From Argopecten irradians (Eukaryota > Mollusca > Bivalvia > Pectinida > Pectinidae): a stretch of 64,000 nucleotides of DNA. Location: contig NC_091142.1 in assembly GCF_041381155.1 (NCBI RefSeq), positions 26,239,963-26,303,962 on the forward strand, in the 5' to 3' direction. A model generated the notes under the pieces. The model ran no database searches. It had not been told where the DNA came from and saw nothing but the letters and a program-made list of their open reading frames with translations. A program made the position numbers and the translations under genes. Positions 5,151-57,072 of this stretch are shown here, piece after piece; within the stretch, counting starts at the first letter, position 1; every line of letters begins with the position of its first letter.

Positions 5151-5289
5151 AATAATTATAGAAAGCATAAATGTGTGATCACTGTAATATTTTTTTTAAT
5201 TTTAGATACTCGTTTTAAAAAAAATCTTATGCGTGCATAATTCAGCAATTTGTTTTGACATATTTTATTTTCAAACATTTTAAAATTAA

Positions 5290-31065: not shown

Positions 31066-31225
31066 GACTCGTATGCATAAAAAATCAAAGAATTTTCTTA
31101 AGTTTGTACTTAAGTAAATTTTCAATACACTTAGTTAAGCAAGATGCTTAATATCTGTTGCATAAATATTCTAAGCATTATGCTTAGCTGTTTTTTGTTA
31201 AGCATATTGCAAAAATCTTAGATGG
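31066..31225 (+). promoter_or_regulatory. SANT-side terminus with subterminal TTAAG repeats (copy C)
   Basis: Starts GACTCGTATGCATAAAAAAT and holds about ten CTTAAG, TTAAGC or GCTTAA words in 150 bp. The same end is seen at 37,205-37,355, 38,405-38,555, 42,352-42,505 and 51,325-51,477. Clustered subterminal motifs are the expected binding sites for a Harbinger transposase/SANT pair; the binding itself is inferred. Confidence 0.55.
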
Positions 31226-31340
31226 CTCGTTGTCAATGGCGAGACATCATGTTTCCCGTACTTTTTGTTTACAAACAATACCACGCGGACAAAACACGTG
31301 AGCGATCGTCGTCTGCTTGTGTAGCTTCTCTGAAAAAAAA

Positions 31341-31636
31341 ATGGCAACGAATATTGTTGAGACACCAAGCAAAAAGCGGAAACCAAACTGGACGGCAGAC
31401 GAATGCTTGCAACTAACAAAACTTGTTGAAGAGAAGAAGGATGTTATCAGGGCCAAGTTTGGTGCGGGGGCTACGACCCAGAGGAAAAGGGAAGCATGGC
31501 AGCGCATAACAGATGCCATCAACGCCAGTTCTACTGTCAGACGAAGCGTAGAGGAGGTAGAAAAAAAAATGGCACAACCTCCATATGAAGGGGAAGGCAG
31601 AGTTGTCTGACCACCGCAGACAGGCAGTGATGACAG
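31341..31636 (+). pseudogene. SANT gene exon 1, copy C
   Basis: Matches copy A exon 1 (MATNIVETPSKKRKPNWTA) up to a run of A, which has nine A where copies A and B have eight. The shift ends the frame at 31,610. Donor GTAATT follows at 31,637. Exons 2 and 3 lie about 20 kb away, beyond the insertion. Confidence 0.75.
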
Positions 31637-31639
31637 GTA

Positions 31640-32028
31640 ATTACTCGTAGTTCGATCATTAACGTTGTAGGCCTAACCCTAAGCATCTAGCAGACGACTC
31701 GCCTTGATCTGTGATCTGTTGTGCGACAGTCATGACTGGTTAATACAGTTCAATAACAACTTCATTTCTACTTACTTTACTTTGAGTGTAAAATCACAAC
31801 AGATCGTCAAAATCTCTGTTAGCCAAGTTCTCAACATCTCGATGGCCGGTGCAATGTTTACTCTGTCGGGTTGTCGTTCTTTGAATTGGAATGCTCGATT
31901 TACACTGTCATCTCTATTACTGTACTGTTGCAACATACAGTGTATAAGTTTCCAACAACTGAATCGAAGTTCCATATGAATACTACATAACCTGATCATG
32001 ATTTATAGTAATATTTGAACTATAGACA
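31640..32028 (+). other. SANT intron 1 start, copy C
   Basis: Homologous to the first part of intron 1 in the other copies. It stops at TATAGACA, where the outer element is interrupted. Confidence 0.7.
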
Positions 32029-32030
32029 GA

Positions 32031-32230
32031 GACTCGTATACATAAAAAATCTTAAATGGTTAAGAATATGCTTAAGTTAAAAATTCTGCTAAGCAGATTA
32101 ATTTTTGTGCTAAGTATATTGCTTATCTTGTTAAGTGGCTTGCAAGATTTTTCTTAACACTTAAGAATATTCTTAACATTAAACAACCACCTTACCTGTC
32201 TTAAATCGTTAAGTAAGATGCTTATCTTTC
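32031..32230 (+). promoter_or_regulatory. Transposase-side terminus with TTAAG repeats and likely promoter
   Basis: About 200 bp between the tip and the start codon are crowded with CTTAA, TTAAG and GCTTA words. The same end is at 42,127-42,330 (copy D) and, reversed, 56,870-57,069 (copy C). It is only loosely like the SANT-side end beyond the first 22 bases, which may let the two ends be told apart. Confidence 0.5.
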
Positions 32231-32234
32231 CAAA

Positions 32235-34360
32235 ATGGCCGCTGCTAATGGACAGAATAATGCACCTCAACAGTTTGTAAGGGCATTGAGAAGAGAAAGA
32301 ATTTTCCGGGACAGGTTTGATCCACTTCAAAACTATGACGGGTTTGAACTTTATCAAAGATTCAGGTTTGACAGGGAGGGGATCCTTTTTATTAATGATA
32401 TTGTGAAAGATTATATTGCCCCCGCCACAGGACGGAATCACAGCCTACCCTCATTTTTGCAGGTGTTATTAGCACTGAGATTCTATGCTACAGGGAAAAT
32501 GCAACTCTGCAGTGGTGATAATTTTAATGTTGACCAGTCAACCGTATCCCGAGTTATCCAGAGAGTGACAAATGCTTTAAACCGCCATGAAGTCGTTACC
32601 AAGTTCATTTCATTCCCTATTTCTGCTGAGGCTGTCAGGAAACATCAAGCAGATTTTTATGCAGTTGCTAGGTTTCCGGGGGTTATCGGAGCAATTGACG
32701 GCACACATATACGTATTTTACGCCCCAGTATCAACGAGCCAGAATTTGTTAACAGAAAAAACTTCCATTCCATCAATGTACAGATTGTGGTGGATGCAAA
32801 TTCACGTATTTTAGACCTAGTTGCGAGATGGCCAGGGTCAGCACACGACGCGAGAATCCTTCGTGAAAGTGGTCTGGCAAGGATATTTGAGGCGAGAATG
32901 GTGCCGGTAAAATGCCACTTACTTGGCGATAGCGGGTATCCTTGTAAAAACTGGCTCTTGACACCCTACCTCAACCCACTACCCGGACAACAGACTCGGT
33001 ACAACAGGTAAATGTTCCTAAAATTGTGTCTACCTTTATTGACAATCTTCTCCGGTCACTCGCGCTACTGTTATTATTGCATTGGAGAGTTTTCGAAAAG
33101 GGAACTAACTCTAGTTGTATAATATGAGGGGTTCAGAATGGGATAATCTAATATTTGAACATCATAGTTGAAAAAAACCCAATAGAAAATAGAGAACTTC
33201 ATCATGTCTAAATATTTCAAGTTTTTATAAAAATAACAGACACCATATGCATGTATAGGGTGTGTTTCACCACATCACAATACATGTTTAATTTAGATTA
33301 CCATATTTTTAATATTGCATATATATACATTTTGTATATAATTATTGCACATTTTGTTAATTAATTTGATCATGAAATTTAATGTTGTGCTTGATCATTT
33401 CAAAAAGAATATCTGTTAGTACATGTACATTTATCTAATATGTTTCATAATAAATTTAATTGATTTATGAGTGGGCAGATTAAAATTAACAGTCCTTTTC
33501 CAGTAAAAAAAAATCAAGTCACATTATTAATAAACATTATCATTTTGTAAGTGTCTTTAGCCTACCTCATACCATGTTATCTAAGAAATCAAGCAAAGGT
33601 TTAAAATAGTTTCAGATTAATTTTGATATAAATATGCACATATAGTTGTATACATGTACATTGTGAATGTGTATACATGTACACTGTACATGTACATGTA
33701 GCTGACAATTTTTTTTATTTGTTTTTTATGCTTTTAAGATATATTATACACAACATGTATCCTTAAATGATCAGATGTCAACTGACTTATAATCATAATT
33801 CAATAATTTGGTAAAATAGAAATTTCAACCTTATATTTAAATGATATGAAATGAAATGAGAATTGGTGGTTCTGATGCACATTTTAGCAGAATTGAACTA
33901 ATATTGAATTTTATTGATATATTTACCTATATTGCTACATATATATGAAGTGCACACTGTATACAGTGTATACATTAAACTGATATGACTTTGCAAATCA
34001 ATTCAAGCTTTAATTCAGGATTTATTTTATAATAAAAACATTTAATCAAATCAAATGGTTCACTTTTGTAGTGCACACAAAACTACCAGGTGTATTGTGG
34101 AAAGAGCTATTGGGCAATGGAAGAGAAGGTTCCATGTGCTGCATGGAGAGATAAGATTGAGACCAGAGAGAGTCTGCAAATTAATCACAGCTTGTGGCAT
34201 TCTACATAACATTGCTAAATTGTTAAACATGCCACAGCTTGATAATGATGATGATGAAGATGGAGATGATGGTAACTGTGATGGTGATGCTAATAGTATC
34301 CAAGAGGACCCTGTTGATGGCAGAGCCTACAGAACCCATATTGTCTGTAACCACTTCTGA
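32235..34360 (+). CDS. HARBI1-like DDE transposase (copy A)
   Basis: PIF/Harbinger transposase, which cuts and rejoins the element's ends with an RNase H-like DDE centre. Exon 1 is 32,235-33,007; the intron runs 33,008-34,071 (GTAAAT ... TTTGTAG); exon 2 is 34,072-34,360. The protein is about 354 residues, normal for the family. An N-terminal helix-turn-helix part (FNVDQSTVSRVIQRV, residues 97-111) precedes the catalytic core: Asp155 in GAIDGTHI, Asp232 in LGDSGYP, and Glu in CIVERAIGQWKRRF at the start of exon 2, then LITACGILHNI. An acidic tail (DNDDDEDGDDG) follows. The start ATG has CCAAA before it, and MAAANGQ is shared by copies C and D. No break is seen, so it may be functional. Confidence 0.85.
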
Positions 34361-34546
34361 TGTAAGCTCAATATTATTTGATTTTTACTTAATTATTTTT
34401 TTCATCTGACCAGGTTTTTTTTATCTACTTCATCATTTTTTTTAAAATCAGCTGATGATATTTGTAAGTTATGTACATAATGTACAAACATAAATCAAAA
34501 TAACACTCATTCAATAGATTTCATTGATTTATTATTTGAGTTTTAA

Positions 34547-37083
34547 TTAACATTCATTATCATTTATCCTTTTGATTTTCAAAGTGAGAAGTTTGTTTTG
34601 TAATTTCAAATTTTCTATTTCCAGCTGCAGCTTCTGCTTCCTGAGTTGCTGGATCCCTGCAGTGCTGTCATCTGATTCTAGGGGTGAAGCTACTGTGCAT
34701 GATGGCAAGATGGTAGCTGCACATGAAGACATGATCTCTGTTGTTATGGTGCTGCATGGGGGTCTGTTATAAAGACAATTCAAAGGATTAAAACTAACTG
34801 ACAATCCATGTAGTACATCATTTCATAATAAATATATGCCATCAATTCATAGATGATAACAAAAATTAATGATAAAAATAATGAAAAACATGAAATTTGA
34901 AATGTCATACATACATGTTCATTGAAACATGTACATAGACATATACATGTGTATTGATTTTTTTTTTTTTTAGTTTTGAAGTTACAATAAATGCACCAAA
35001 ACTTAGATTTTGGCTATATTTGAAGCTTCCTTTTGCAGAATGATTACCATAATTCCTTTACAAATATGTGCGTTGGAAAGATAGATCCAAATATTTTGTA
35101 CTTGATATGAACTAGTAATTTGCATGTACATTTTCAACTAGCCCTATAATCTGTCATAAAATACCTTGAGATTGATGGAAACACTGGGTCAGTGTTTAGA
35201 AGCATCATCATGGATGTGTCCACTGCCCCATCAATGCCACAAATGGACACATTATCCAGGCCAATTACATTGCCCACAGCCTCAGCAATTGGACTGATCT
35301 GGGGCATAGAAGATGGACCACCACCTGAAATTGAGTACATGTATGCATTTAAGGTTGTTTATTTACCATTTATAATTCCATTTATCAATATTAATTTTGA
35401 CTGAAATCAGAATATAAGTACAGAAAATGTAATTGTATAATATATTTACATGAAAAAGAATCTGTGGCCTTTTTATTTTACTATACAGCTGTATTTCATT
35501 TTTAATCAAGAAAGTACACAATTGTGTATATGTGCAAGGCATTTTATTAGTGTGACATAATCAGGCAATAATCCATTTGGAAAAAAACAGGTTTACTGCA
35601 AGAAGAAAATAAATAGATTTACAGAAAATAAGACATATTATGAAAAGCCAGTTGGAGTTTTTATATTCAGTTTCTGTATTTACATGTCTGTATCTCACAT
35701 ATATCTGTACATCTCATATGTATCTGTATCTCATATGTATATGTATCTCATTTACATATGTCTGCATTTTAAAATAAAAAGTAAATACCTGAATCAAATT
35801 ATAGCTATTAAAATTAAATTACAGATACATGTATAGATCTGCAATTTAATTAATGAAATTAATTTATCAACATTTTTAAAATACAAATATCTTAATTCCT
35901 TAAACAATACAAATATTTATCTTAAAACTACAGATACATGTATTTGTAATTATAAGACAATGCATGTAAGCTTGTTTATCTCAATCTGTATTAACAATAG
36001 TAAATAGATTTAAGCTAAGCCTTAATGAAAATAATGTTATGTACAGATGATTTTGAAAACAGCTTATCATAATCTGTATTGTTCATGCATAGACCTAAAT
36101 ATCTACAATGACAATAAATGAAGATGTCTGTAATCAAAATATGGGTAAACTCTGTTTTTGATTCCAAATAAGAGTGGTCGTTGTGTTTATTTATAAATGA
36201 CTGTTGAAGATACTATTGGACAGTATTGGTAGGAGGGTTGGTCTTAACCTATCAATATTCATAATTGGGCGGTACTAATACTATTTATGGATGTTAGGCG
36301 TATTCGATTTACTGTTTCCGACCTGTTTGCAGTATGTAAATACGTCTGTATTTCATCGTTTCTCGCCAAAACATAATACAAAACAAGTGCAAACTATGTC
36401 TATAGTTGAAATATTACTATAAATCATGATCAGGTTATGTAGTATTCATATGGAACTTCGATTCAGTTGTCGGAAACTTATACACTGTATATTGCAACAG
36501 TACAGTAATAGAGATGACAATGTAAATCGAGCATTCCTATTCAAAGAACGACAACCCGACAGAGTAAACATTGCACCGGCCATCGAGATGTTGAGAACTT
36601 GGCTAACAGAGATTTTGACGATCTGTTGTGATTTTACACTCAAAGTAAAGTAAGTAGAAATGAAATTGTTATTAAACTGCATTAACCAGTCATGACTGTC
36701 GCACAACAGTTCACAGATCAAGGCGAGTCGTCTGCTAGATGCTTAGGGTTATGCCTACAACGTTAATGATCGAACTACGAGTAATTACCTGTCATCACTG
36801 CCTGTCTGCGGTGGTCAGACAACTCTGCCTTCCCCTTCATATGGAGGTTGTGCCATTTTTTTTCTACCTCCTCTACGCTTCGTCTGACAGTAGAACTGGC
36901 GTTGATGGCATCTGTTATGCGCTGCCATGCTTCCCTTTTCCTCTGGGTCGTAACCCCCGCACCAAACTTGGCCCTGATAACATCCTTCTTCTCTTCAACA
37001 AATTTTGTTAGCTGCAAGCATTCGTCTGCCGTCCAGTTTGGTTTCCGCTTTTTGCTTGGTGTCTCAACAATATTCGTTGCCAT
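34547..37083 (-). CDS. NAIF1-like Myb/SANT DNA-binding protein (copy A)
   Basis: The second Harbinger gene, which in known families binds DNA and helps the transposase enter the nucleus. Exons: 37,083-36,789, 35,324-35,165 and 34,763-34,547, with GT/AG borders and matching phases, giving 223 residues. Residues 1-98 form the Myb/SANT-like domain: KKRKPNWTADECLQLTKFV, REAWQRITDAINAS and VEEVEKKWHNLHMKGKAE, close in layout to NAIF1. The middle exon is Gly/Ser/acidic without a motif. The last exon ends in a coiled coil (QQLRKQKLQLEIENLKLQN), likely for pairing. An in-frame upstream ATG (37,191) would add 36 residues, but MATN fits the domain better and has a purine at -3. Convergent with the transposase. 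Confidence 0.8.
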
Positions 37084-37204
37084 TTTTTCAGAGAAGCTAG
37101 ACAAGCAGACGACGATCGCGCACGTGTTTTGTCCGCGTGGTATTGTTTGTAAACAAAAAGTACGGGAAACATGATGTCTCGCCATTGACAACGAGCCATC
37201 TAAG

Positions 37205-37355
37205 ATTTTTGCAATATGCTTAGCAAAAAACAGCTAAGCATAATGCTTAGAATATTTATGCAACAGATATTAAGCATCTTGCTTAACTAAGTGTATTGAA
37301 AATTTACTTAAGTACAAACTTAAGAAAATTCTTAGATTTTTTATGCATACGAGTC
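37205..37355 (-). promoter_or_regulatory. SANT-side terminus (copy A)
   Basis: Ends in ATGCATACGAGTC followed by CAG. TTAAG, GCTTAA and CTTAAG words are clustered as in 31,066-31,225. Confidence 0.55.
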
Positions 37356-37358
37356 CAG

Positions 37359-38058
37359 GCATTCCGCGTCGCGTCGGCCACCTGCGACGAACTGCAACAT
37401 CCTTCTCCCGGGAACAAATCGCATTGGATGGGGTTTCTTCTTTTGATATTTTACCATAAAGTCATTTTATATAAGCTCTTAAATGTCCATTTGCCGTATA
37501 TCAAACTTCATTCTTATAAATAAAACATGTTGATTCAGTACTCACTTATTGATACTACTGCAACTTTCCAGGCTACCAACTTTTTTAATTGGCGCCTAGA
37601 TTTTTTGGCCTGGGAGCCACACTGGCAACCAGATAAAAAAATTCACTTGGAGCCTTTACAAAACCGCTCGTGACATATTCATCCAAAACTTTGAGTGACA
37701 AATCCTTTTCGCTTAAAAATCCTTGCAGTAGAGGAGAACGTGAAGCAACTATATAGGCCTGGGGGCAGGAGGGGCGGGGCCCAATAGGGGAAATAAAAGT
37801 AAATCCTATAAATCGCTACTAGTCATAGAGTTCTGCATGGATCATAACCAAATTTGGCCACAAACATCCTTGGAGGAAGGGGAACAGAGCTTGTATAAAT
37901 TTTGGCTCTGACCCCCAGGGGGCAGGAATGGTGGGGCCCAATAGGGGAATTAGAGGTAAATATTCAAATTTCTTCAGAAAATAAACAATGAACCTGTATC
38001 CAGAATATTACTTGGCATTACAAACCAGGTGAGCGATACAGGCCCTCTGGGCCTCTTG
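37359..38058 (+). repeat. Unclassified dispersed repeat ending in a short hairpin
   Basis: Two similar G-rich blocks (GGGGCCCAATAGGGGAA at about 37,777 and 37,938) lie in a longer repeat that ends with the hairpin AGGCCCTCTGGGCCT (38,041-38,053) and then CTTG. A terminal hairpin recalls Helitron-like 3' ends, but the last bases do not fit CTRR, so the class is left open. Confidence 0.4.
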
Positions 38059-38555
38059 TTTTTCTACCTCTTCTACGCTTCGTCTGACAGTAGAACTGGC
38101 GTTGATGGCATCTGTTATGCGCTGCCATGCTTCCCTTTTCCTCTGGGTCGTAACCCCCGCACCAAACTTGGCCCTGATAACATCCTTTTTCTCTTCAGCA
38201 GGTTTTGTTAGCTGCAAGCATTCGTCTGCCGTCCAGTTTGGTTTCCGCTTTTTGCTTGGTGTCTCAACAATATTCGTTGCCATTTTTTCAGAGAAGCTAG
38301 ACAAGCAGACGACGATCGCGCACGTGTTTTGTCCGCGTTGTATTGTTTGTAAACAAAAAGTACGGGAAACATGATGTCTCGCCATTGACAACGAGCCATC
38401 TAAGATTTTTGCAATATGCTTAGCAAAAAACAGCTAAGCATAATGCTTAGAATATTTATGCAACAGATATTAAGCATCTTGCTTAACTAAGTGTATTGAA
38501 AATTTACTTAAGTACAAACTTAAGAAAATTCTTAGATTTTTTATGCATACGAGTC
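38059..38555 (-). mobile_element. Harbinger scrap E (SANT-side end)
   Basis: Carries the SANT-side terminus (ends 38,555, then CAG) and SANT exon 1 from the start codon (38,283) to the A-run in VEEVEKK, where it is cut off against the preceding repeat. The rest of the element is missing. Confidence 0.8.
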
Positions 38556-38576
38556 CAGAACTACACCAGTGAATGA

Positions 38577-39715
38577 TCTCTTGATAATACGATAATAGTT
38601 CCTGATGGCGATTATCCTGCGGTGTTTGACCTAACAAGTGAGCTTGATGAATCATTGCCTACTGGAATAGTGACATCCAGTGAAAGCAATACAGATAAAA
38701 GAAATCCAAAAAGGAAACATCCCATGGCCAGCAACAATGAATCTCCTGAGATATATCGCCTGGATAGAGTGGGCAATAGACCATCTAAAAGGCAACGTGT
38801 TCAGGACAAGGTTCAGGACGAGTTTCATCAAGGTTTGGTGTGTGATTATTGTGGTTATGTTGTGGTCAGCAAAGTACAACAAGAGGAAGAAAAATTCATG
38901 ATGTGTCATTTCTCTGATTGTAAACATAACTCAGCAAGTTTTGCTAAAATAAAAATGTCAGATGAAAAAACTGGCATAGCTGTAGCTGTTATCAAAGAGA
39001 GTGTTCTAATGGTTTCCAGAAGTAAACATGCTGCGTTGGTCAATCAGGTTGTGCCAATGTGTCCAGAGAAGGATTGTAACCAGATACACGAATCCATATG
39101 GACATGTGCAAAACACTATGAGATGTGTCACTCCCCACAAAACTCAACCTGCTATGGCTTAGCAAATGTGGTTTCTTTTAGAACCATAGTGTTTCTCAAC
39201 TACAAACATTTGCTCGAAATGTCATTTCTCATTTGATAGTTCATCAGCTATTCATAAACACTGGGAGCGTACTGGCTGTCTGAGTGGATTTAGGACAAAG
39301 ACAAATGACAAAGATATAGTGACACTGTTTTTCTGTTCCTACTGTAACTCACTTCATCCAAATTTTGCTTCCTGCAGAACGCATATCATAAAGCAACACA
39401 ATATCAAAAAGGATGCTTCTATGAATGTGGTAGTCGTTGAAGCAACAAACTGCTAAACTTGAATTATTGCCTATAGAACCTAGATCAGTTGAGGACCAAG
39501 CACAATATGAGAAGGGTCTCTTATCATCCATGAAAAGGACTGCCAGAAGATATGGTTTTGGTGTTAAAGCAACAAAAAAACATCTTAAAGCTGAACACAA
39601 AATATATAGATTAAAGTATCCACATATAAAAGATTCAAAGGCATCTGCACAAGATTCAAAGGCATCTAAAGCCAAAAAAGCCCGTAAAAAATATAAGAAC
39701 TTAAAAGACATGTAA
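38577..39715 (+). pseudogene. Atypical multi-zinc-finger gene fragment
   Basis: An open frame from 38,577 (after a stop) to 39,236 has no ATG at its head (VPDGDYPAVFDLTSELDE), so a 5' exon is missing; an AG just before TTCCTGATGG could be its acceptor. Later pieces in other frames run on to 39,715. Zinc-binding clusters: VCDYCGY with a later CHFSDCKH; CPEKDCNQIHESIWTCAKH (C2H2); ICSKCHFSFDSSSAIHKHW; and FFCSYCNSLHPNFASCRTH with IIKQH. A Lys-rich tail ends it (KAKKARKKYKNLKDM). Two frame changes make it a likely pseudogene or retrocopy. It lies in the cargo between Harbinger copies. Family not recognised. Confidence 0.5.
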
Positions 39716-39719
39716 ATAG

Positions 39720-40260
39720 AAACAGGTATGCAGTTAACTAGCGAAAGTTGTGTTAATTAAGCACTGGTAACTGTTATAAATTTTCAAAGTGCCTCTATCA
39801 TTTATGCAGTGTCTGACAAACTTGCTTGCAAAAGTGCTGAAAAAGTGGAGATAAAGAGCTTGAGGTGGTGGTACGTCAACTATCAGGATACATAGCTACA
39901 TCAGCCATTTTAGATCAACTAAGGACAAGCACCGACATAGTTGTTAAAAAGATGTTAACAAAAAATTATTTTTCAATTTCAGATGTTTTATGTACAATGG
40001 CTATAAAAGTTATTATTTTAAAAGCAGAATCAAACATTCCATCTACCTTTTATAATTAATTTTACACACACAAACTATCATTTTGAAGGAAAATTAGAGA
40101 AGACAAATACAATGTATTATATTTAGGCCATAGATTACAAAATGTATGCTACACCAATGAACATCTTCAAGGAATACATTCTACTCAATCTTTTTTTGTT
40201 TTTTTTGTTGTTAAAAAATTGGTTTATGAATTAAAAAAATGTATTTTTTTAATTCATGTT
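39720..40260. other. Likely 3' flank of the zinc-finger fragment
   Basis: AT-rich with no domain. Ends in a T-rich stretch before the hairpin element. Confidence 0.3.
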
Positions 40261-40264
40261 ATTT

Positions 40265-40617
40265 AAGGATTAACTTGAATAGATTTTTTATGTTATGGAG
40301 ATATAACACAAAAATCTGAGTGTACTCTAAATAAACCGCGAAGCGGTTTATGATGAGAGTACACTCAGATTTTTGTGTTATATCTCCATAACATAAAAAA
40401 TCTATTCAAATTAATCCTTATAATTCAATTTACTAAAGATAATCTCTTCAACATTTAAAATTCATTTTGGGACTCTTTTGTCTTTGAAATTATTACGCCG
40501 TCATCTCAGCCAATCAGAAGCGACGTTACAAACGGCGACGCCATTTTTTCCTTTATGGGCTGATAAAGTAAATTTTTAAACCAATGGAAATGCTCGTAAC
40601 AAGCAAAATTGAATTAT
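40265..40617. mobile_element. Hairpin element, copy 2
   Basis: The same 155-bp palindrome (40,265-40,419) and following 200 bp as at 24,694-25,046, without the extra half-hairpin. Confidence 0.8.
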
Positions 40618-40619
40618 AT

Positions 40620-41395
40620 TAAATCAACCCATATCATTTCACTATCAAGGATGGCGTGATTTCATACAGATGTTGTATTCCCTGCATTTTTACATATGGT
40701 AAACTCCAGTATTCAAAAGGTCAGCCAGACAGATCATTGAACTTGGTAGAATATATGAACTTGGTGATATCCAACAAAAGGTTTGTGTCTCAATACATCA
40801 TAAGCGTGTAACAGAAAACATTTCTTTTCATTATTATGAAACTAACGGTACACATCTCTTGATTTTATCAACTCTTGAAATTATCAAAATCCAGCGTTTT
40901 CTTTGGTAAAATGATTGTCCACAACCAGCACAATACTTATATCAGCTGTTACTTATAACAGTATATTTCAACACTAGCACCAAAATTGGGTCTCTTAAAA
41001 TGATCACAATCCTACATTTTCTTCCTTGAAAGGATTGTCTATACCCATCACAACATTTATAATCCTAAATTAATATAGAAACCAATATCAGTTATTACAG
41101 AAAACAGTATCAAAATCCATAATTTTCTTTATTAAAATGATTACCCATACCCAAAACGACACTTATAATCCAATATTCATGTAGAAATCAATGTCAGTTG
41201 CTAATGGTAACAGTTTTTTAACACTGGCACCAAAACCTCAACTTGGGATTCCAACACAAAACATACATACATGATCAGTAAAATAATAGGAAATGGGTAA
41301 ATGCTATTGAATCGTATGGTCATATAGGATATTTTCTCAATATTTAAATATACAGGAATTGCTTGATATAACAATATAACAATACACTACAAACT
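40620..41395. other. No gene seen
   Basis: Several diverged repeats of CAAAATCC..TTTTCTT-type words and of ACAGTATTTCAACAC suggest an old tandem structure. Non-coding. Confidence 0.35.
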
Positions 41396-41399
41396 TCTC

Positions 41400-41622
41400 C
41401 GGGGCCGCGTTAACTGAGTGGTTAAGATGTCCTGACATATTACCACAAGCTCTCCATCTCTGGGATGCGAGTTCAAATCCCTTGTGGAGCAGTTGCCAGG
41501 TACTGACCGCTGGTCGGTGGTTTTTCTCCGGATACTCCAGCTTTCCACAACTGACAAACCTGGCACGTCCTTACACGACCCTGGCTGTCTATAGGACATT
41601 AAACTAATAAAACCAAATCAAA
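41400..41622 (+). repeat. tRNA-derived SINE, near full length
   Basis: The head has A box TTAACTGAGTGGTTAAG (41,409-41,425) and B box GAGTTCAAATCCC (41,469-41,481). A central block reads GGTTTTTCTCCGGATACTCC; the tail reads TGTCTATAGGACATTAAACT followed by an AAACCAAATCAAA end. Possible short target duplication around CAAACT..CC. The head most resembles a Ser/Leu-type tRNA, but that is a rough call. Confidence 0.75.
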
Positions 41623-41629
41623 CTCCATA

Positions 41630-42123
41630 AAAGTATATTCGTGCCTTTGAACGGCAAACATACATGTATAGTTATCCTGACATTAGTTACCATCTTTCAT
41701 CGAGATAAAAGTATTTTAAAGTTAAATTGACTACCAATATAACTTGGATATGAACAGACATTTCTTTTGGGTACAGTTAAACAATTAACATATTAATTTA
41801 ACAAGATGAAAGTAAAGGATCTATAATTGTTCGTGGTTTGAACTACTGTCAGCAAAAATAAATAAAAAAACAAGAACAAACTTATTAATATCTTTAATAT
41901 TCATCTTTTTAGTAATATCAAATCCGTAATTGCCTATTCATACAGAAAATATCTTGTATTGCAAGTAGTCTAAAGTTGAAGAAAAAAAACCCGTTCATTT
42001 ATATATATAACACCAAGTTCATGTACAGGACTAGAAAACTATCAAGCACCAGGGACAGTATAATGGCCATTTCATTATAAAATTCCAGTTGCCATCCAAA
42101 AGCATTTGCACATACACTAAAAA
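41630..42123. other. No feature seen
   Basis: AT-rich DNA up to the CAG (42,124-42,126) bordering Harbinger copy D. Confidence 0.35.
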
Positions 42124-42623
42124 CAGGACTCGTATGCATAAAAAATCTTAAATGGTTAAGAATATGCTTAAGTTAAAAATTCCGCTAAGCATGTTGATTT
42201 TTGTGCTAAGTATATTGCTTATCTTGTTAAGTGGCTTGCATGATTTTTCTTAACACTTAAGAATATTCTTAACATTAAACAACCACCTTACCTGTCTCAA
42301 ATCGTTAAGCAAGATGCTTATCTTTCCAAAATGGCCGCTGCTAATGGACAGGACTCGTATGCATAAAAAATCTAAGAATTTTCTTAAGTTTGTACTTAAG
42401 TAAATTTTCAATACACTTAGTTAAGCAAGATGCTTAATATCTGTTGCATAAATATTCTAAGCATTATGCTTAGCTGTTTTTTGCTAAGCATATTGCAAAA
42501 ATCTTAGATGGCTCGTTGTCAATGGCGAGACATCATGTTTCCCGTACTTTTTGTTTACAAACAATACCACGCGGACAAAACACGTGCGCGATCGTCGTCT
42601 GCTTGTCTAGCTTCTCTGAAAAA

Positions 42624-45157
42624 ATGGCAACGAATATTGTTGAGACACCAAGCAAAAAGCGGAAACCAAACTGGACGGCAGACGAATGCTTGCAGCTAAC
42701 AAAATTTGTTGAAGAGAAGAAGGATGTTATCAGGGCCAAGTTTGGTGCGGGGGTTACGACCCAGAGGAAAAGGGAAGCATGGCAGCGCATAACAGATGCC
42801 ATCAACGCCAGTTCTACTGTCAGACGAAGCGTAGAGGAGGTAGAAAAAAAATGGCACAACCTCCATATGAAGGGGAAGGCAGAGTTGTCTGACCACCGCA
42901 GACAGGCAGTGATGACAGGTAATTACTCGTAGTTCGATTATGAACGTTGTAGGCATAACCCTAAGCATCTAGCAGACGACTCGCCTTGATCTGTGAACTG
43001 TTGTGCGACAGTCATGACTGGTTAATGCAGTTTAATAACAATTTCATTTCTACTTACTTTACTTTGAGTGTAAAATCACAACAGATCGTCAAAATCTCTG
43101 TTAGCCAAGTTCTGAACATCTCGATGGCCGGTGCAATGTTTACTCTGTCGGGTTGTCGTTCTTTGAATAGGAATGCTCGATTTACATTGTCATCTCTATT
43201 ACTGTACTGTTGCAATATACAGTGTATAAGTTTCCGACAACTGAATCGAAGTTCCATATGAATACTACATAACCTGATCATGATTTATAGTAATATTTCA
43301 ACTATAGACATAGTTTGCACTTGTTTTGTATTATGTTTTGGCGAGAAACGATGAAATACAGACGTATTTACATACTGCAAACAGGTCGGAAACAGTAAAT
43401 CGAATACGCCTAACATCCATTAATAGTATTAGTACCGCCCAATTATGAATATTGATAGGTTAAGACCAACCCTCCTACCAATACTGTCCAATAGTATCTT
43501 CAACAGTCATTTATAAATAAACACAACGACCACTCTTATTTGGAATCAAAAACAGAGTTTACCCATATTTTGATTACAGACATCTTCATTTATTGTCATT
43601 GTAGATATTTAGGTCTATGCATGAACAATACAGATTATGATAAGCTGTTTTCAAAATCATCTGTACATAACATTATTTTCATTAAGGCTTAGCTTAAATC
43701 TATTTACTATTGTTAATACAGATTGAGATAAACAAGCTTACATGCATTGTCTTATAATTACAAATACATGTATCTGTAGTTTTAAGATAAATATTTGTAT
43801 TGTTTAAGGAATTAAGATATTTGTATTTTAAAAATGTTGATAAATTAATTTCATTAATTAAATTGCAGATCTATACATGTATCTGTAATTTAATTTTAAT
43901 AGCTATAATTTGATTCAGGTATTTACTTTTTTTTTTAAAATGCAGACATATGTAAATGAGATACATATACATATGAGATACAGATACATATGAGATGTAC
44001 AGATATATGTGAGATACAGACATGTAAATACAGAAACTGAATATAAAAACTCCAACTGGCTTTTCATAATATGTCTTATTTTCTGTAAATCTATTTATTT
44101 TCTTCTTGCAGTAAACCTGTTTTTTTCCAAATGGATTATTGCCTGATTATGTCACACTAATAAAATGCCTTGCACATATACACAATTGTGTACTTTCTTG
44201 ATTAAAAATGAAATACAGCTGTATAGTAAAATAAAAAGGCCACAGATTCTTTTTCATGTAAATATATTATACAATTACATTTTCTGTACTTATATTCTGA
44301 TTTCAGTCAAAATTAATATTGATAAATGGAATTATAAATGGTAAATAAACAACCTTAAATGCATACATGTACTCAATTTCAGGTGGTGGTCAATCTTCTA
44401 TGCCCCAGATCAGTCCAATTGCTGAGGCTGTGGGCAATGTAATTGGCCTGGATAATGTGTCCATTTGTGGCATTGATGGGGCAGTGGACACATCCATGAT
44501 GATGCTTCTAAACACTGACCCAGTGTTTCCATCAATCTCAAGGTATTTTATGACAGATTATAGGGCTAGTTGAAAATGTACATGCAAATTACTAGTTCAT
44601 ATCAAGTACAAAATATTTGGATCTATCTTTCCAACGCACATATTTGTAAAGGAATTATGGTAATCATTCTGCAAAAGGAAGCTTCAAATATAGCCAAAAT
44701 CTAAGTTTTGGTGCATTTATTGTAACTTCAAAACTAAAAAAAAATATCAATACACATGTATATGTCTATGTACATGTTTCAATGAACATGTATGTATGAC
44801 ATTTCAAATTTCATGTTTTTCATTATTTTTATCATTAATTTTTGTTATCATCTATGAATTGATGGCATATATTTATTATGAAATGATGTACTACATGTAT
44901 TGTCAGTTAGTTTTAATCCTTTGAATTGTCTTTATAACAGACCCCCATGCAGCACCATAACAACAGAGATCATGTCTTCATGTGCAGCTACCATCTTGCC
45001 ATCATGCACAGTAGCTTCACCCCTATAATCAGATGACAGCACTGCAGGGATCCAGCAACTCAGGAAGCAGAAGCTGCAGCTGGAAATAGAAAATTTGAAA
45101 TTACAAAACAAACTTCTCACTTTGAAAATCAAAAGGATAAATGATAATGAATGTTAA
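42624..45157 (+). pseudogene. SANT gene, copy B
   Basis: Exons 42,624-42,918, 44,383-44,542 and 44,941-45,157, borders as in copy A. Exons 1 and 2 are intact. In exon 3 a GAA codon has become TAA (45,026-45,028), cutting off the coiled coil but leaving the whole DNA-binding domain. The product would be a protein of about 180 residues that could bind DNA without pairing, if expressed. Confidence 0.75.
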
Positions 45158-45342
45158 TTAAAACTCAAATAATAAATCAATGAAATCTATTGAATGAGTG
45201 TTACTTTGATTTATGTTTGTACATTATGTACATAACTTACAAATATCATCAGCTGATTTAAAAAAAATGATGAAGTAGATAAAAAAAACCTGGTCAGATG
45301 AAAAAAATAATTAAGTAAAAATCAAATAATATTGAGCTTACA

Positions 45343-47258
45343 TCAGAAGTGGTTACAGACAATATGGGTTCTGTAGGCTCTGCCATCAACAGGGTCCTCT
45401 TGGATACTATTAGCATCACCATCACAGTTACCATCATCTCCATCTTCATCATCATCATTATCAAGCTGTGGCATGTTTAACAATTTAGCAATGTTATGTA
45501 GAATGCCACAAGCTGTGATTAATTTGCAGACTCTCTCTGGTCTCAATCTTATCTCTCCATGCAGCACATGGAACCTTCTCTTCCATTGCCCAATAGCTCT
45601 TTCCACAATACACCTGGTAGTTTTGTGTGCACTACAAAAGTGAACCATTTGATTTGATTAAATGTTTTTATTATAAAATAAATCCTGAATTAAAGCTTGA
45701 ATTGATTTGCAAAGTCATATCAGTTTAATGTATACACTGTATACAGTGTGCACTTCATATAAATGTAGCAATATAGGTAAATATATCAATAAAATTCAAT
45801 ATTAGTTCAATTCTGCTAAAATGTGCATCAGAACCACCAATTCTCATTTCATTTCATATCATTTAAATATAAGGTTGAAATTTCTATTTTACCAAATTAT
45901 TGAATTATGATTATAAGTCAGTTGACATCTGATCATTTAAGGATACATGTTGTGTATAATATATCTTAAAAGCATAAAAACAAATAAAAAAAATTGTCAG
46001 CTACATGTACATGTACGGTGTGTACACATTCACAATGTACATGTATACAACTATATGTGCATATTTATATCAAAATTAATCTGAAACTATTTTAAACCTT
46101 TGCTTGATTTCTTAGATAACATGGTATGAGGTAGGCCAAAGACACTTACAAAATGATAATGTTTTTTAATAATGTGACTTGATTTTTTTTTACTGGAAAA
46201 GGACTGTTAATTTTAATCTGCCCACTCATAAATCAATTAAATTTATTATGAAACATATTAGATAAATGTACATGTACTAACAGATATTCTTTTTGAAATG
46301 ATCAAGCACAACATTAAATTTCATGATCAAATTAATTAACAAAATGTGCAATAATTATATACAAAATGTATATATATGCAATATTAAAAATATGGTAATC
46401 TAAATTAAACATGTATTGTGATGTGGTGAAACACACCCTATACATGCATATGGTGTCTGTTATTTTTATAAAAACTTGAAATATTTAGACATGATGAAGT
46501 TCTCTATTTTCTATTGGTTTTTTTTCAACTATGATGTTCAAATATTAGATTATCCCATTCTGAACCCCTCATATTATACAACTAGAGTTAGTTCCCTTTT
46601 CGAAAACTCTCCAATGCAATAATAACAGTAGCGCGAGTGACCGGAGAAGATTGTCAATAAAGGTAGACACAATTTTAGGAACATTTACCTGTTGTACCGA
46701 GTCTGTTGTCCGGGTAGTGGGTTGAGGTAGGGTGTCAAGAGCCAGTTTTTACAAGGATACCCGCTATCGCCAAGTAAGTGGCATTTTACCGGCACCATTC
46801 TCGCCTCAAATATCCTTGCCAGACCACTTTCACGAAGGATTCTCGCGTCGTGTGCTGACCCTGGCCATCTCGCAACTAGGTCTAAAATACGTGAATTTGC
46901 ATCCACCACAATCTGTACATTGATGGAATGGAAGTTTTTTCTGTTAACAAATTCTGGCTCGTTGATACTGGGGCGTAAAATACGTATATGTGTGCCGTCA
47001 ATTGCTCCGATAACCCCCGGAAACCTAGCAACTGCATAAAAATCTGCTTGATGTTTCCTGACAGCCTCAGCAGAAATAGGGAATGAAATGAACTTGGTAA
47101 CGACTTCCTGGCGGTTTAAAGCATTTGTCACTCTCTGGATAACTCGGGATACGGTTGACTGGTCAACATTAAAATTATCACCACTGCAGAGTTGCATTTT
47201 CCCTGTAGCATAGAATCTCAGTGCTAATAACACCTGCAAAAATGAGGGTAGGCTGTGA
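45343..47258 (-). pseudogene. Transposase, copy B, N-terminus missing
   Basis: Exon 2 (45,631-45,343) is intact, and exon 1 (from about 47,258 to 46,689) keeps all from about LPSFLQV to the donor, including GAIDGTHI and LGDSGYP. The first 70 or so residues and the promoter are gone. Confidence 0.8.
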
Positions 47259-48432
47259 CACCCTACCTCAACCCACTACCCGGACAACAGACTCGGTACA
47301 ACAGGTAAATGTTACTAAAATTGTGTCTACCTTTATTGACAATTTTCTCCGGTCACTCGCGTTACTGTTATTATTGCACTGGAGAGTTTTCGAAAAGGGA
47401 ACTAACTCTAGTTGTATAATATGAGGGGCTCAGAATGGGATAATCCAATATTTGCACATCATAGTTGAAAAAAACAATAGAAAATAGAGAACTTCATCCT
47501 GTCTAAATATTTCAAGTTTTTATAAAAATAACAGACACCATATGCATGTATAGGGTGTGTTTCACCACATCACAATACATGTTTAATTTAGATTACCATA
47601 TTTTTAATATTGCATATATATATACATGTACATTTTGTAGGTGTCTTTAGCCTACCTTATACCATGTTATCTAAAAAATCAAGCAAAGGTTTAAAATAGT
47701 TTCAGATTAATTTTGATATAAATATGCACATATAGTTGTATACATGTACATTGTGAATGTGTATACACTGTACATGTACATGTAGCTGACATTTTTATTT
47801 GTTTTTATGATTTTAAGATATATTATACACAACATGTATCCTTAAATGATGTCAACTGACTTATAATCATAATTCAATAATTTGGTAAAATAGAAATTTC
47901 AACCTTATATTTAAATGATATGAAATGAATTGAGAATTGGTGGTTCTGATGCACATTTTAGCAGAATTGAACTATAATATTGAATTTTATTGATATATTT
48001 ACCTATATTTCTATATATCTATGAAGTGCACACTGTATACAGTGTATTAAACTGACATGACTTTGCAAATCAATTCAAGCTTTAATTGAGGATTTATTTT
48101 ACAATAAAAACATTTAATCAAAACAAATGGTTCACTTTTGTAGTGCACACAAAACTACCAGGTGTATTGTGGAAAGAGCTATTGGGCAATGGAAGAGAAG
48201 GTTCCACGTGCTGCATGGAGAGATAAGATTGAGACCAGAGAGAGTCTGCAAATTAATCACAGCTTGTGGCATTCTACATAACATTGCTAAATTGTTGAAC
48301 ATGCCACAGCTTGATAATGGTGATGATGAAGATGGAGATGATGGTAACTGTGAGGGTGATGCTAATAGTATCCAAGAGGACCCTGTTGATGGCAGAGCCT
48401 ACAGAACCCATATTGTCTGTAATCACTTTTGA
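47259..48432 (+). pseudogene. Transposase, copy D, mostly deleted exon 1
   Basis: Keeps only the end of exon 1 (about 47,259-47,304, TPYLNPLPGQQTRYN), the intron in a shortened form (47,305-48,143) and an intact exon 2 (48,144-48,432). The first codons are at 42,331-42,351. The two catalytic Asp residues are lost. Confidence 0.8.
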
Positions 48433-48618
48433 TGTAAGCTCAATATTATTTGATTTTTAGTTATTTATTTTTTTCAACTGACCTGGGTTTTTTTTATCTA
48501 CTTTATCATTTTTTTAAATCAGCTGATGATATTTGTAGAGTTATGTACATAATGTACAAGCATTAAATCAAATAACACTCAATCAATAGATTTCATTAAT
48601 TTATTATTTGAGTTTTAA

Positions 48619-51205
48619 TTAACATTCATTATCATTTATCCTTTTGATTTTCAAATTGAGAAGTTTGTTTTGTAATTTCAAATTTTCTATTTCCAGCTGC
48701 AGCTTCTGCTTCCTGAGTTGCTGGATCCCTGCAGTGCTGTCATCTGATTCTAGGGGTGAAGCTACTCTGCATGATGGCAAGATGGTCGTTGCACATGAAG
48801 GCATGATCTCTGTTGTTATGGTGCTGCATGGGGGTCTGTTATAAAGACAATTTAAAGGATTAAAGCTAACTGACAATACATGTAGTACATCATTTCATAA
48901 TAAATATATGCCATCAATAGATGATAACAAATATTACTAGTAATGATAAAAATAATAAAAAACATGAAATTTCATACATACATGTTCATTGAAACATGTA
49001 CATAGACATATACATGTACATTGATATTTTTTTTACTTTTGAAGTTACAATAAATGCACCAAAACTTAATTTTTGGCTATATTTGAAGCTTCCTTTTGCA
49101 GAATGAATACCATAATTCCTTTACAAATATGTGAGTTGGAAAGATAGATCCAAATATTTTGTACTTGATATGAACTAGTAATTTGCATGTACATTTTCAA
49201 CTAGCCCTATAATCTGTCATAAAATACCTTGAGATTGATGGAAACACTGGGTCAGTGTTTAGAAGCATCATCATTGATGTGTCCACTGCCCCACCAATGC
49301 CACAAATGGACACATTATCCAGGCCAATTACATTGCCCACAGCCTCAGCAATTGGACTGATCTGGGGCATAGAAGATTGACCACCACCTAAAATTGAGTA
49401 CATGTATGCATTTAATTAAGGTTGTTTATTTACCATTTATAATTCCATTTATCAATATTAATTTTGACTGACATCAGAATATAAGTACAGAAAATGTAAT
49501 TGTATAATATATTTACATGAAAAAGAATCTGTGGCCTTTTTGTTTTACTATATAGCTGTATTTCATTTTCTATCAAGAAAGTACACAATTGTGTATATGT
49601 GCAAGGCATTTTATTAGTGTGACATAATCAGGCAATAATCCATTGGGAAAAAAACAGGTTTACTGCAAGAAGAAAATAAATAGATTTATAGAAAATAAGA
49701 CATATTATAAAAAGCCAGTTGGAATTTTTATATCCAGTTTCTGTATTAACATATGTCTGTATCTCACATATATCTGTATCTCTTGTGTATCTGTATCTCA
49801 TATGTATATGTATCACTGTGTATCTCATATGTATAGGTATCTCATTTACATATGTCTGCATTTAAAAAAAAAGTATATACCTGAATGAAATTATAGATAT
49901 TAAAATTAAATTACAGATACATGTATAGATCTGCAATTTAATTAATGAAATTAATTTATCAACATTTTCAAAATACAAATATCTTAATTCCTTAAACAAC
50001 AAAAATATTTATCTTAAAACTACAGATACATGTATTTGTAATTATAAGACAATGCATGTAAGCTTGTATATCTCAATCTGTATTAACAATAGTAAATAGA
50101 TGTAAGATTAGCCTTAATGAAAATAATGTTATGTACAGATGATTTTGAAAACAGCTTATCATAATCTGTATTGTTCATGTATAGATCTAAATATCTACAT
50201 GTATAATGACAATAAATGAAGATGTCAGTAATCAAATATGGGAAACTCTGTTTTTGATTACAAATAAGAGTGGTCGTTGTGTTTATATATAATTGACTGT
50301 TGAAGATACTATTGGACAGTATTGGTAGGAGGGTTGGTCTTAACTTATCAATATTCATAATTGGGCGGTACTAATACTATTTATGGATGTTAGGCGTATT
50401 CGATTTACTGTTTCCGATCTGTTTGCAATATATAAATTACGTCTGTATGTCATCGTTTCTCGCCAAAACATAATACAAAACAAGTGCAAACTACTGTCTA
50501 TAGTTGAAATATTACTATAAATCATGATCAGGTTATGTAGTATTCATTTGGAACTTCGATTCAGTTGTCGGAAACTTATATATTGCAATAGTACCGTAAT
50601 AGAGATGATAAAGTAAATCGAGCATTCCTATTCAAATAACGACAACCCGACACAGCAAACATTGCACCGGCCATCGAGATGTTGAGAACTAGGCTAACAG
50701 AGATTTTGACGATCTGTTGTGATTTTACACTCAATGTAAAGTAAGTAGAAATGAAATTGTTATTAAACTGCATTAACCAGTCATGACTGTCGCACAACAG
50801 ATCACAGATCAAGGCTAGTCGTCTGCTATAGGGGCCTAATTCAACGTAATTCAACGTAATGATGCTTAAGCCTACAACTGTAATGATCATGATCGAACTA
50901 CTAGTAATTACCTGTCATCACTGCCTGTCTGCGGTGGTCAGACAACTCTGCCTTCCCCTTCATATGGAGGTTGTGCCATTTTTTTCTACCTCCTCTACGC
51001 TTCGTCTGACAGTAGAACTGGCGTTGATGGCATCTGTTATGCGCTGCCATGCTTCCCTTTTCCTCTGGGTCGTAACCCCCGCACCAAACTTGGCCCTGAT
51101 AACATTCTTCTTCTCTTCAACAAGTTTTGTTAGCTGCAAGCATTCGTCTGCCGTCCAGTTTGGTTTCCGCTTTTTGCTTGGTGTCTCAACACTATTCGTT
51201 GCCAT
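48619..51205 (-). pseudogene. SANT gene, copy D
   Basis: Exons 51,205-50,912, 49,387-49,228 and 48,835-48,619. In exon 1 the A-run has seven A where copies A and B have eight, shifting the frame after VEEVEK. Exons 2 and 3 remain open. Confidence 0.75.
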
Positions 51206-52577
51206 TTTTTCAGAGAAGCTAGACAAGCAGACGACGATCGCGCACGTGTTTTGTCCGCGTGGTATTGTTTGTAAACAAAAAGTACGGAAAACATGATGTC
51301 TCGCCATTGACAACGAGCCATCTAAGATTTTTGCAATATGCTTAGCAAAAAACAGCTAAGCATAATGCTTAGAATATTTATGCAACAGAAATTAAGCATC
51401 TTGCTTAACTAAGTGTATTGAAAATTTACTTAAGTACAAACTTGAGAAAATTCTTAGATTTTTTATGCATACGAGTCATAGTTTGCACTTGTTTTGTATT
51501 ATGTTTTGGCGAAAAACGATGAAATACAGACGTATTTACATACTGCAAACAGGTCGGAAACAGTAAATCGAATACGCCTAACATCCATTAATAGTATTAG
51601 TACCGCCCAATTATGAATAATGATAAGTTAAGACCAACCCTCCTACCAATACTGTCCAATAGTATCTTCAACAGTCATTTATAAATAAACACAACGACCA
51701 CTCTTATTTGGAATCAAAAACAGAGTTTACCCATATTTTGATTACAGACATCTTCATTTATTGTCATTGTAGATATTTAGGTCTATGCATGAACAATACA
51801 GATTATGATAAGCTGTTTTCAAAATCATCTGTACATAACATTATTTTCATTAAGGCTTAGCTTACATCTATTTACTATTGTTAATACAGATTGAGATATA
51901 CAAGCTTACATACATTGTCTTATAATTACAATGTATCTGTAGTTTTAAGATAAATATTTGTATTGTTTAAGGAATTAAGATATTTGTATTTTAAAAATGT
52001 TGATAAATTAATTTCATTAATCAAATTGCAGATCTATACATGTATCTGTAATTTAATTTAAATAGCAATAATTTGATTCAGGTATCTACTTTTTTTTTTA
52101 AATGCAGACATATGTAAATGAGATACATATACATATGAGATACAGATACATATGAGATACAGATACATATGAGATACAGATACATATGAGATGAACAGAT
52201 ATATGTGAGATACAGACATGTAAATACAGAAACTGAATATAAAAACTCCAACTGGCTTTTTATAATATGTCTTATTTTCTGTAAATCTATTTATTTTCTT
52301 CTTGCAGTAAACCTGTTTTTTCCTAATGGATTATTGCCTGATTATGTCACACTAATAAAATGCCTTGCACATATACACAATTGTGTACTTTCTTGATTAA
52401 AAATGAAATACAGTTGTATAGTAAAACAAAAAGGCCACAGATTCTTTTTCATGTAAATATATTATACAATTACATTTTCTGTACTTATATTCTGATTTCA
52501 GTCAAAATCGATATTGATAAATGGAATTATAAATGGTAAATAAACAACCTTAAATGCATACATGTACTCAATTCCAG

Positions 52578-53349
52578 GTGGTGGTCCATCTTCTATGCCC
52601 CAGATCAGTCCAATTGCTGAGGCTGTGGGCAATGTAATTGGCCTGGATAATGTGTCCTTTTGTGGCATTGATGGGCAGTGGACACATCCATGATGATGCT
52701 TCTAAACACTGACCCAGTGTTTCCATCAATCTCAAGGTATTTTATGACAGATTATAGGGCTAGTTGAAAATGTACATGCAAATTACTAGTTCATATCAAG
52801 TACAAAATATTTGGATCTATCTTTCCAACGCACATATTTGTAAAGGAATTATGGTAATCATTCTGCAAAAGGAAGCTTCAAATATAGCCAAAATCTAAGT
52901 TTTGGTGCATTTATTGTAACTTCAAAAGTAAAAAAAATATCAATGTACATGTATATGTCTATGTACATGTTTCAATAAACATGTATGTATGACATTTCAA
53001 ATTTCATGTTTTTTATTATTTTTATCATTAATATTTGTTATCATCTATGAATTGATGGCATATATTTATTATGAAATGATGTACTACATGTATTGTCAGT
53101 TAGCTTTAATCCTTTAAATTGTCTTTATAACAGACCCCCATGCAGTTCATAACAACAGAGATCATATCTTCTTGTGCAGCTACCATGATGCCATCATGCA
53201 CAGTAGCTTCACCCCTAGAATCAGATGACAGCACTGCAGGGATCCAGCAACTCAGGAAGCAGAAGCTGCAGCTGGAAATAGAAAATTTGAAATTACAAAA
53301 CAAACTTCTCACTTTGAAAATCAAAAGGATAAATGATAATGAATGTTAA
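52578..53349 (+). pseudogene. SANT exons 2 and 3, copy C
   Basis: Exon 2 (52,578-52,736) has lost one G in GATGGGGCAG. Exon 3 (53,134-53,349) has lost one base in its CAGCACCAT region. Together with the exon 1 shift at 31 kb, this gene is dead. The coiled-coil part still reads well. Confidence 0.75.
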
Positions 53350-54645
53350 TTAAAACTCAAATAATAAATTCATGAAATCTATTGAATGAGTGTTATTTTG
53401 ATTTATGTTTGTACATTATGTACGTAACTTACAAATATCATCAGCTGATTTAAAAAAAATGATGAAGTAGATGAAAAAAAACCTGGTCAGATGAAAAAAA
53501 TAATTAAGTAAAAATCAAATAATATTGAGCTTACATCAGAAGTGGTTACAGACAATATGGGTTCTGTAGGCTCTGCCATCAACAGGGTCCTCTTGGATAC
53601 TATTAGCATCACCATCACAGTTACCATCATCTCCATCTTCATCATCATCATTATCAAGCTGTGGCATGTTTAACAATTTAGCAATGTTATGTAGAATGCC
53701 ACAAGCTGTGATTAATTTGTAGACTCTCTCTGGTCTCAATCTTATCTCTCCATGCAGCACATGGAACCTTCTCTTCCATTGCCCAATAGCTCTTTCCACA
53801 ATACACCTGGTAGTTTTGTGTGCACTACAAAAGTGAACCATTTGATTTGATTAAATGTTTTTATTGTAAAATAAATCCTGAATTAAAGCTTGAATTGATT
53901 TGCAAAGTCATATCAGTTTAATGTATACACTGTATACAGTGTGCACTTCATATATATGTAGCAATATAGGTAAGTATATCAATAAAATTCAATATTAGTT
54001 CAATTCTGCTAAAATGTGTATCAGAACCACCAATTCTCATTTCATTTCATATCACTTAAATATAAGGTTGAAATTTCTATTTTACCAAATTATTTAATTA
54101 TGATTATAAGTCAGTTGACATCTGATCATTTAAGGATACATGTTGTGTATAATATATCTTAAAAGCATAAAAACAAATAAAAAAAAATTGTCAGCTACAT
54201 GTACATGTACGGTGTGTACACATTCACAATGTACATGTATACAACTATATGTGCATATTCATATCAAAATTAATCTGAAACTATTTTAAACCTTTGCTTG
54301 ATTTCTTAGATAACATGGTATGAGGTAGGCTAAAGACACTTACAAAATGATAATGTTTATTAATAATGAGACTTGATTTTTTTTTACTGGAAAAGGACTG
54401 TTAATTTTAATATGCCCACTCATAAAACAATTAAATTTATTATGAAACATATTAGATAAATGTACATGTACTAACATATATTCTTTTTGAAATGATCAAG
54501 CACAACATTAAATTTCATGATCAAATTAATTAACAAAATGTGCAATAATTATATACAAAATGTATATATATGCATTATTAAAAATATGGTAATCTAAATT
54601 ATACATGTATTGTGATGTGGTGAAACACACCCTATACATGCATAT

Positions 54646-55740: not shown

Positions 55741-55744
55741 ATAT

Positions 55745-55898
55745 GGATTGGATTTCGTTTTTATGTTAACCATGCTTGTATGGAGCAATTCCACTAAGAA
55801 TATATTCAATATGGGGCGCTAACGCGCCCCATAGAATATATTCTTAGAGGAATTGCTCCATACAAGCATGGTTAACATAAAAACGAAATCCAATCCCT
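55745..55898. mobile_element. Palindromic hairpin element nested next to the previous one
   Basis: Arms of about 70 bp (GGATTGGATTTCGTTTTTAT ... complement) around a GGGGCGCTAACGCGCCCC centre. ATAT flanks again (55,741-55,744; 55,899-55,902), so it seems to have used the same ATAT left by the neighbouring insertion. Confidence 0.7.
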
Positions 55899-56869: not shown

Positions 56870-57069
56870 GAAAGATAAGCATCTTACTTAACGATTTAAG
56901 ACAGGTAAGGTGGTTGTTTAATGTTAAGAGTATGCTTAAGTGTTAAGAAAAATCATGCAAGCCACTTAACAAGATAAGCAATATGCTTAGCACAAAAATT
57001 AATCTGCTTAGCAGAATTTTTAACTTAAGCATATTCTTAACCATTTAAGATTCTTTATGCATACGAGTC
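56870..57069 (-). promoter_or_regulatory. Transposase-side terminus (copy C)
   Basis: Mirror image of 32,031-32,230: TTAAG and GCTTA words up to ATGCATACGAGTC, then CAG at 57,070. Confidence 0.55.
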
Positions 57070-57072
57070 CAG

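Follow-up and report, generated by a model that had tools for sequence, protein, structure and literature searches.

Two NuwaI elements and the DNA between them probably moved as one unit into a third in Argopecten irradians

How does a 19.4-kb block of DNA that begins in one transposon and ends in another come to lie inside a third? The question is raised by a 64,000-nucleotide stretch of the Argopecten irradians genome (C9:26239963-26303962 in an assembly of 845.8 Mb in 1508 contigs), referred to here as the window, in which five copies or parts of copies of one DNA transposon, A to E, all lie within positions 31066-57069 (Table 1). A preliminary description, based on the letters of the window, had proposed that a single macrotransposition carried A, its neighbour D and the cargo between them into C. 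We read all structures from the assembled sequence of one haplotype, and many of the element copies elsewhere in the genome were seen in part. Copy A, 5325 bp long, served as the yardstick for the coordinates of the other copies.

Table 1. Positions of the transposon copies and of the carried DNA in the window
Feature	Position	Strand	Remarks
C, SANT-side part (left half)	31066-32028	-	A 5325 to about 4364; CAG at 31063-31065
Extra GA, 2 bp	32029-32030		between the left half of C (CTATAGACA) and the tip of A
A	32031-37355	+	full length; subfamily 1
C4-like stretch	37356-37762	+	nearest relative C4:11682295-11684669
Helentron/HINE-like repeat and tail ending CAGGCCCTCTGGGCCTCTTG	37763-38055	+	apparently lodged in the T-tract of E
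E	38056-38555	+	only the SANT-side 500 bp of a NuwaI element; adjoins the C3-derived fragment at CAG 38556-38558
C3-derived fragment	38556-42126	+	codons 154-541 of a 541-codon gene and 3' flank; CAG at both ends
Hairpin repeat, about 360 bp	40260-40619		in the C9 fragment; not on C3
D, transposase-side tip	42127-42351	+	subfamily 2
B	42352-47258	-	subfamily 1; nested in D at CAG 42349-42351; transposase tip lost
D, remainder to SANT-side tip	about 47259-51477	+	subfamily 2
C, right half to transposase tip	51478-57069	-	insert 54646-55898; CAG at 57070-57072

The plus strand of A carries two transposase exons that match the Pfam family DDE_Tnp_4 (E 2e-22 and 1e-10), as in DDE transposases of the PIF/Harbinger kind, and its minus strand carries a Myb/SANT domain in an open reading frame of its own (Myb_DNA-bind_5, E 6.8e-19). 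CAG or CTG (CWG) adjoins the element tip in 18 of 21 distinct tip contexts. A tip was counted if its first 22 bases differed by at most 3 substitutions, if 12 or more flanking bases were present and if its subterminal sequence was recognisable; the 21 are the subset of the tip matches with retrievable letters, a tip on C5 included, and two of them, at C9:20.83-20.86 Mb, lie beside copies of one duplicated flank and so do not count as independent. The three tips lacking CWG are the outer left end of A, the outer right end of D and the C5 tip, which adjoins ATG. Duplication of a 3-bp CWG target is seen as well in the two CAGs that flank C and in two empty sites on C3, described below, each with one CAG. 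The NuwaI group of the PHIS superfamily, found mainly in animals, is described as having 3-bp CWG duplications and a transposase with a separate Myb/SANT open reading frame (PMC4482050), and because the window elements share both the duplication and the two-frame layout, it is the group into which they fit, a placement made on these characters. Their earlier naming as Harbinger is thus accurate in the wide sense and is refined to NuwaI by the CWG duplications.

Copy C, the host of the block, is interrupted at a single point. The last letters of its left half are CTATAGACA and the first of its right half ATAGTTTGC; compared with the unsplit site of subfamily-1 copies, CTATAGACATAGTTTGC, the two halves are contiguous to the base, with nothing lost and one A common to both. 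The right half consists of two pieces, 51478-54645 (A about 4371-1215) and 55899-57069 (A 1218-1), on either side of a 1253-bp stretch without a match to A. Both outer ends of C touch CAG. The block itself starts within 2 bp of the transposase-side tip of A and ends exactly at the SANT-side tip of D, which is collinear with A on the same strand. On each of these points, namely the loss-free split, the CAGs around C, the tips that bound the insert and the common orientation of A and D, the preliminary description proved accurate. A pair of like-oriented elements that enclose other DNA and bound the unit with their outer ends is the arrangement expected of a macrotransposon, and since those ends lie at or within 2 bp of tips of opposite kinds while the halves of C abut exactly, chance is not a serious explanation for it. 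A second haplotype of the C site was not found among the best 40 of 3433 and the best 40 of 785 candidates for the outer flanks of C: the full-length flanks matched only themselves, and the other matches in these sets were partial matches to repeats. Among element copies, the site at which C is split varies (CTATAGACATAG, CTATAGACAGTAG, CTATAGACAGTAGCTAAG), which may reflect an excision footprint at a reused target.

The origin of the two outer ends was examined by subfamily typing at 77 diagnostic sites, which were defined without recourse to A and D (subfamily 1 from B and four further copies, subfamily 2 from five, with several of these copies partial). In A, 75 of the 77 sites show the subfamily-1 base, whereas D carries the subfamily-2 base at 67 of the 70 that it covers, the last of which lies 87 bp from its right tip. 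When six transposase-side tips were compared by eye from base 57 onward, A proved to be like C and the C5 tip, whereas D resembled the copies at C9:20.83 and 20.84. By the counts at the diagnostic sites, the outer ends of the block belong to two different elements, a result in line with macrotransposition and unfavourable to the alternative of gene conversion into one element in C. Under the latter explanation, C would have contained one NuwaI element, X, and a break in X would have been repaired by ectopic copying from an array of E, cargo and D elsewhere. Such copying would leave the donor in place and would call for no more than known homologous repair, and A and D are similar enough for it, at 94-100% identity per 300-bp window. 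However, since A is of subfamily 1 and D of subfamily 2 up to the outermost diagnostic sites, X could have supplied no more than about 56 bp at the outer tip of A or 87 bp at that of D unless it was itself recombinant, and we consider ectopic conversion unlikely.

We searched 37362-42126 against the scallop's own genome by BLAST, and the stretch 38556-42126 (3.57 kb) matched the minus strand of C3:27826282-27829591 with 98-98.5% identity in three main pieces, or 33 substitutions in 3206 aligned bases, with nine internal gaps. The match starts at the CAG beside the right tip of E and ends at the CAG beside the left tip of D; it extends three bases beyond a CAG where C3 happens to continue with GAC, like the element tip. 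Past each CAG, C3 continues without a transposon, so both are empty sites, indicating that E and D inserted into a C3-derived stretch. Macrotransposition predicts carried DNA with a native place elsewhere and empty sites at the inner ends, and this is what C3 provides for the right end of E and the left end of D. The source gene on C3 has an intact reading frame of 541 codons, in which the CAG targeted by E is codon 154, while the C9 fragment contains a premature stop and frameshifts; because the frame is intact there, the simplest reading is that the gene is native to C3 and that the C9 copy is its broken duplicate. The 20 kb examined around the donor contain nothing that matches the transposons of the window, and no C3 allele with E and D in place was seen in the one haplotype assembled, in which the empty C3 may be another allele than the donor. 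A second copy of the gene stretch lies beside the donor (C3:27832148-27834081, 70-85% similar), so that the source gene may belong to a local family. One of the gaps between C9 and C3 is accounted for by the hairpin repeat, 355 bp of which are absent from C3. At least 22 near-full copies of this repeat were present among the matches listed from the same genome, and their identity of 97-100% makes recent activity probable.

The left part of the cargo has a different history. Positions 37356-37548 and 37542-37762 match C4 at 99% and 96%, respectively, with about 2 kb intervening on C4. The match begins at the 3-bp flank of A, which reads CAG in the window and CAA on C4; for the right end of A, the C4 relative does not show the CAG that C3 shows for E and D. 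The adjoining repeat is built of units of about 157 bp, and its tail ends in CTTG; in all five distinct occurrences of this tail examined, the window's included (up to 3 mismatches), the following base is T. Non-autonomous Helentrons of the Pacific oyster are described as carrying tandem repeats and as preferring T-rich sites, without duplication (PMC7492417), and 37763-38055 looks like the end of such a Helentron-like (HINE) element. We infer that this element brought the C4-like DNA and that A then inserted into that DNA. About 900 bp and an apparent element head separate the C4-like stretch from the repeat on C4 and are absent from the window, so the scheme needs a deletion or a capture as a further step. 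As E would have been cut by the Helentron-like element, the left end of the block was perhaps E's originally; it may have been inherited from E through recombination with A, or may be A's own. Recombination between E and A, which share an orientation, would have removed the left part of E and left the body of A behind E's left junction. The missing left part of E and the join to C4-like DNA count against the scheme, as they would demand extra steps. The cargo components listed in the preliminary description (a zinc-finger fragment, a SINE, a hairpin element and the scrap E) are present, although the zinc finger consists of C2H2-like motifs recognised by eye only, the 541-residue product having no Pfam match at E <= 0.01. 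That description had proposed a search for the cargo at a donor locus flanked by A and D; the donor found on C3 holds the main part of the cargo and has empty CAG sites, perhaps on another allele. The cargo was, however, drawn from three origins (C3, C4-like and Helentron-like) and is not one captured block, and what was taken to be gene capture amounts to the carriage of a broken gene piece rather than a working gene.

Within the right part of the block, D is interrupted by B, and about 1.1 kb is missing at the right junction between the two, comprising B's 407 bp at its transposase tip and the part of D that corresponds to A 226-928. An inversion of the stretch between A and B, which are inverted and near-identical, was considered and rejected, as the two parts of D are collinear across B and the present orientation fits that of D. 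This collinearity, broken only by the deletion, also bears on the possibility that the assembly has joined separate loci through repeated elements. The structure is read from the assembly, in which single-copy pieces are connected by multi-copy elements, a feature in favour of such an error; but the joins fall at element tips and not within shared repeats, and those of E and D with the cargo carry the same CAG as the empty sites on C3. We therefore regard an assembly error as very improbable.

The junctions of the block with C are the least regular part of the structure. No target duplication surrounds the unit: the left junction reads CTATAGACA-GA and the right ATAGTTTGC, so that AGA stands on the left and ATA on the right, and the tips have no 3-mer in common. 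A reading of the left junction as CAG with one additional A is possible and would hold if C had been of the subfamily-2 type, whose copies carry CTATAGACAGTAG, with CAG, at the split site; but the variant of C next to this site is common to two copies (on C13 and at C9:22.2 Mb), both of the type without CAG. The C5 tip likewise lacks CWG, so the oddity extends beyond the block. Without a clean CWG duplication, the last step must have been aberrant or altered afterwards, which weakens the case for ordinary transposase-mediated integration but leaves the claim of movement in one piece intact. It could also be taken to mean that a break inside C was patched by end joining of DNA fragments, with no transposase action on the block. 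The 2 extra bases at the C junction and the patchwork of C4-like and C3-derived DNA accord with such filler DNA, yet it would be surprising for a random fragment to end exactly at the tip of D on one side and within 2 bp of the tip of A, a tip of the opposite kind, on the other, and we judge this origin to be distinctly improbable.

Taken together, these observations make it probable that two NuwaI elements in direct orientation lent their outer ends to a composite, which moved into C on C9 as a unit. Of the single macrotransposition originally proposed, the en-bloc unit is what the C3 empty sites and the subfamily typing best support, while the several origins of the cargo and the lack of a clean CWG duplication depart from its simple form. 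In the scheme that we envisage, the first step would have been the insertion of E and D, both facing the same way, into an allele or a copy of the C3 gene. A Helentron-like element with C4-like DNA would then have entered the T-tract of E, followed by insertion of A at a CWG within the C4-like DNA. Whether earlier or later than the move itself, E would have lost its left part, for which recombination with A is the simplest route, and at some point the hairpin repeat would have entered the C3-derived fragment. Transposase would have brought together the right end of D and the outer left end, that of E or of A, and excised the block, which would have been joined into C without a clean 3-bp CWG duplication, either by end joining or with junctions that were altered later. 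Finally, B would have inserted into D, with the deletion of about 1.1 kb there.

An element map of the genome, with at least 52 matches (39 of 53 candidates scored), contained no second composite that we could recognise. A candidate at C61:64808-76640 was rejected because its pieces (A 1-303, 294-1911, 1906-3322 and 3319-5325) adjoin as one interrupted element, and so was a pair of SANT-side ends at C3:25348272 and C3:25352839, which lie 4567 bp apart with identical flanks and apparently reflect a tandem duplication of a stretch with a broken NuwaI element. A short NuwaI derivative of about 0.9 kb at C5:16126130-16127035 has an internal deletion that brings A 2-575 next to A 4961-5325. Transposase-side tips (24 matches, 3 of them in the window and 21 elsewhere) crowd on C9, which makes up 5.2% of the genome and holds 7 of the 21 outside the window (binomial 6e-5), or 5 of 19 (binomial 0.002) once three with a duplicated flank at 20.83-20.86 Mb are merged; local hopping is one explanation.

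Ac macrotransposons of maize were reportedly the subject of work by Huang and Dooner in 2008. Their excision and reinsertion are on record (PMC9910405), and, as in the block described here, a large unit that includes host DNA lies between two element ends; Ac/Ds elements are, however, hAT elements with 8-bp duplications studied in genetic stocks of a plant, whereas ours is a natural animal locus with no clean duplication. For Pack-TYPE elements, including Pack-PIF of maize, a tandem-insertion model has been proposed in which neighbouring insertions with compatible ends, mostly in one orientation, are re-mobilised and capture the DNA between them (PMC8903248). Neighbouring compatible ends and a PIF example are thus common to both cases, but Pack-TYPE families consist of many small, non-autonomous copies (with a mean of 535 bp in the PIF example), in contrast to one 19.4-kb unit with near-full elements at its ends. 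An animal precedent for the idea is the P-derived MITE AgaP2-P12 of Anopheles gambiae, which has ends from two subfamilies and for which macrotransposition was proposed (PMC1562414); it belongs to the P superfamily, and the part of that report available to us mentions no donor locus with empty sites such as C3 provides here. Models of hybrid elements and ectopic recombination form the wider background (PMC2775673). Composite movement is not reported for the NuwaI group in the accessible portion of PMC4482050, and our literature search, with subscription journals mostly outside its scope, found no description of macrotransposition by Harbinger-type elements in an animal. The block is therefore a fresh instance of a process known mainly from maize, with an unusually complete donor side.

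The locus offers a natural animal case of two DNA transposons moving jointly, in which the carried gene, its native locus and two empty sites for the inner ends are found in one genome, making the order of events, their age and their donor testable. Macrotransposition, for which maize supplies the documented cases and a P-derived MITE of a mosquito a proposed one, would thereby be extended to a PIF/Harbinger-type group in an animal. It is conceivable, though rather unlikely, that paired NuwaI elements recurrently carry pieces of host genes between animal chromosomes, and that nested Helentron-like elements add pieces from further chromosomes to give multi-chromosome units. The movement inferred at this locus would constitute a DNA-level route for partial gene duplication between chromosomes.
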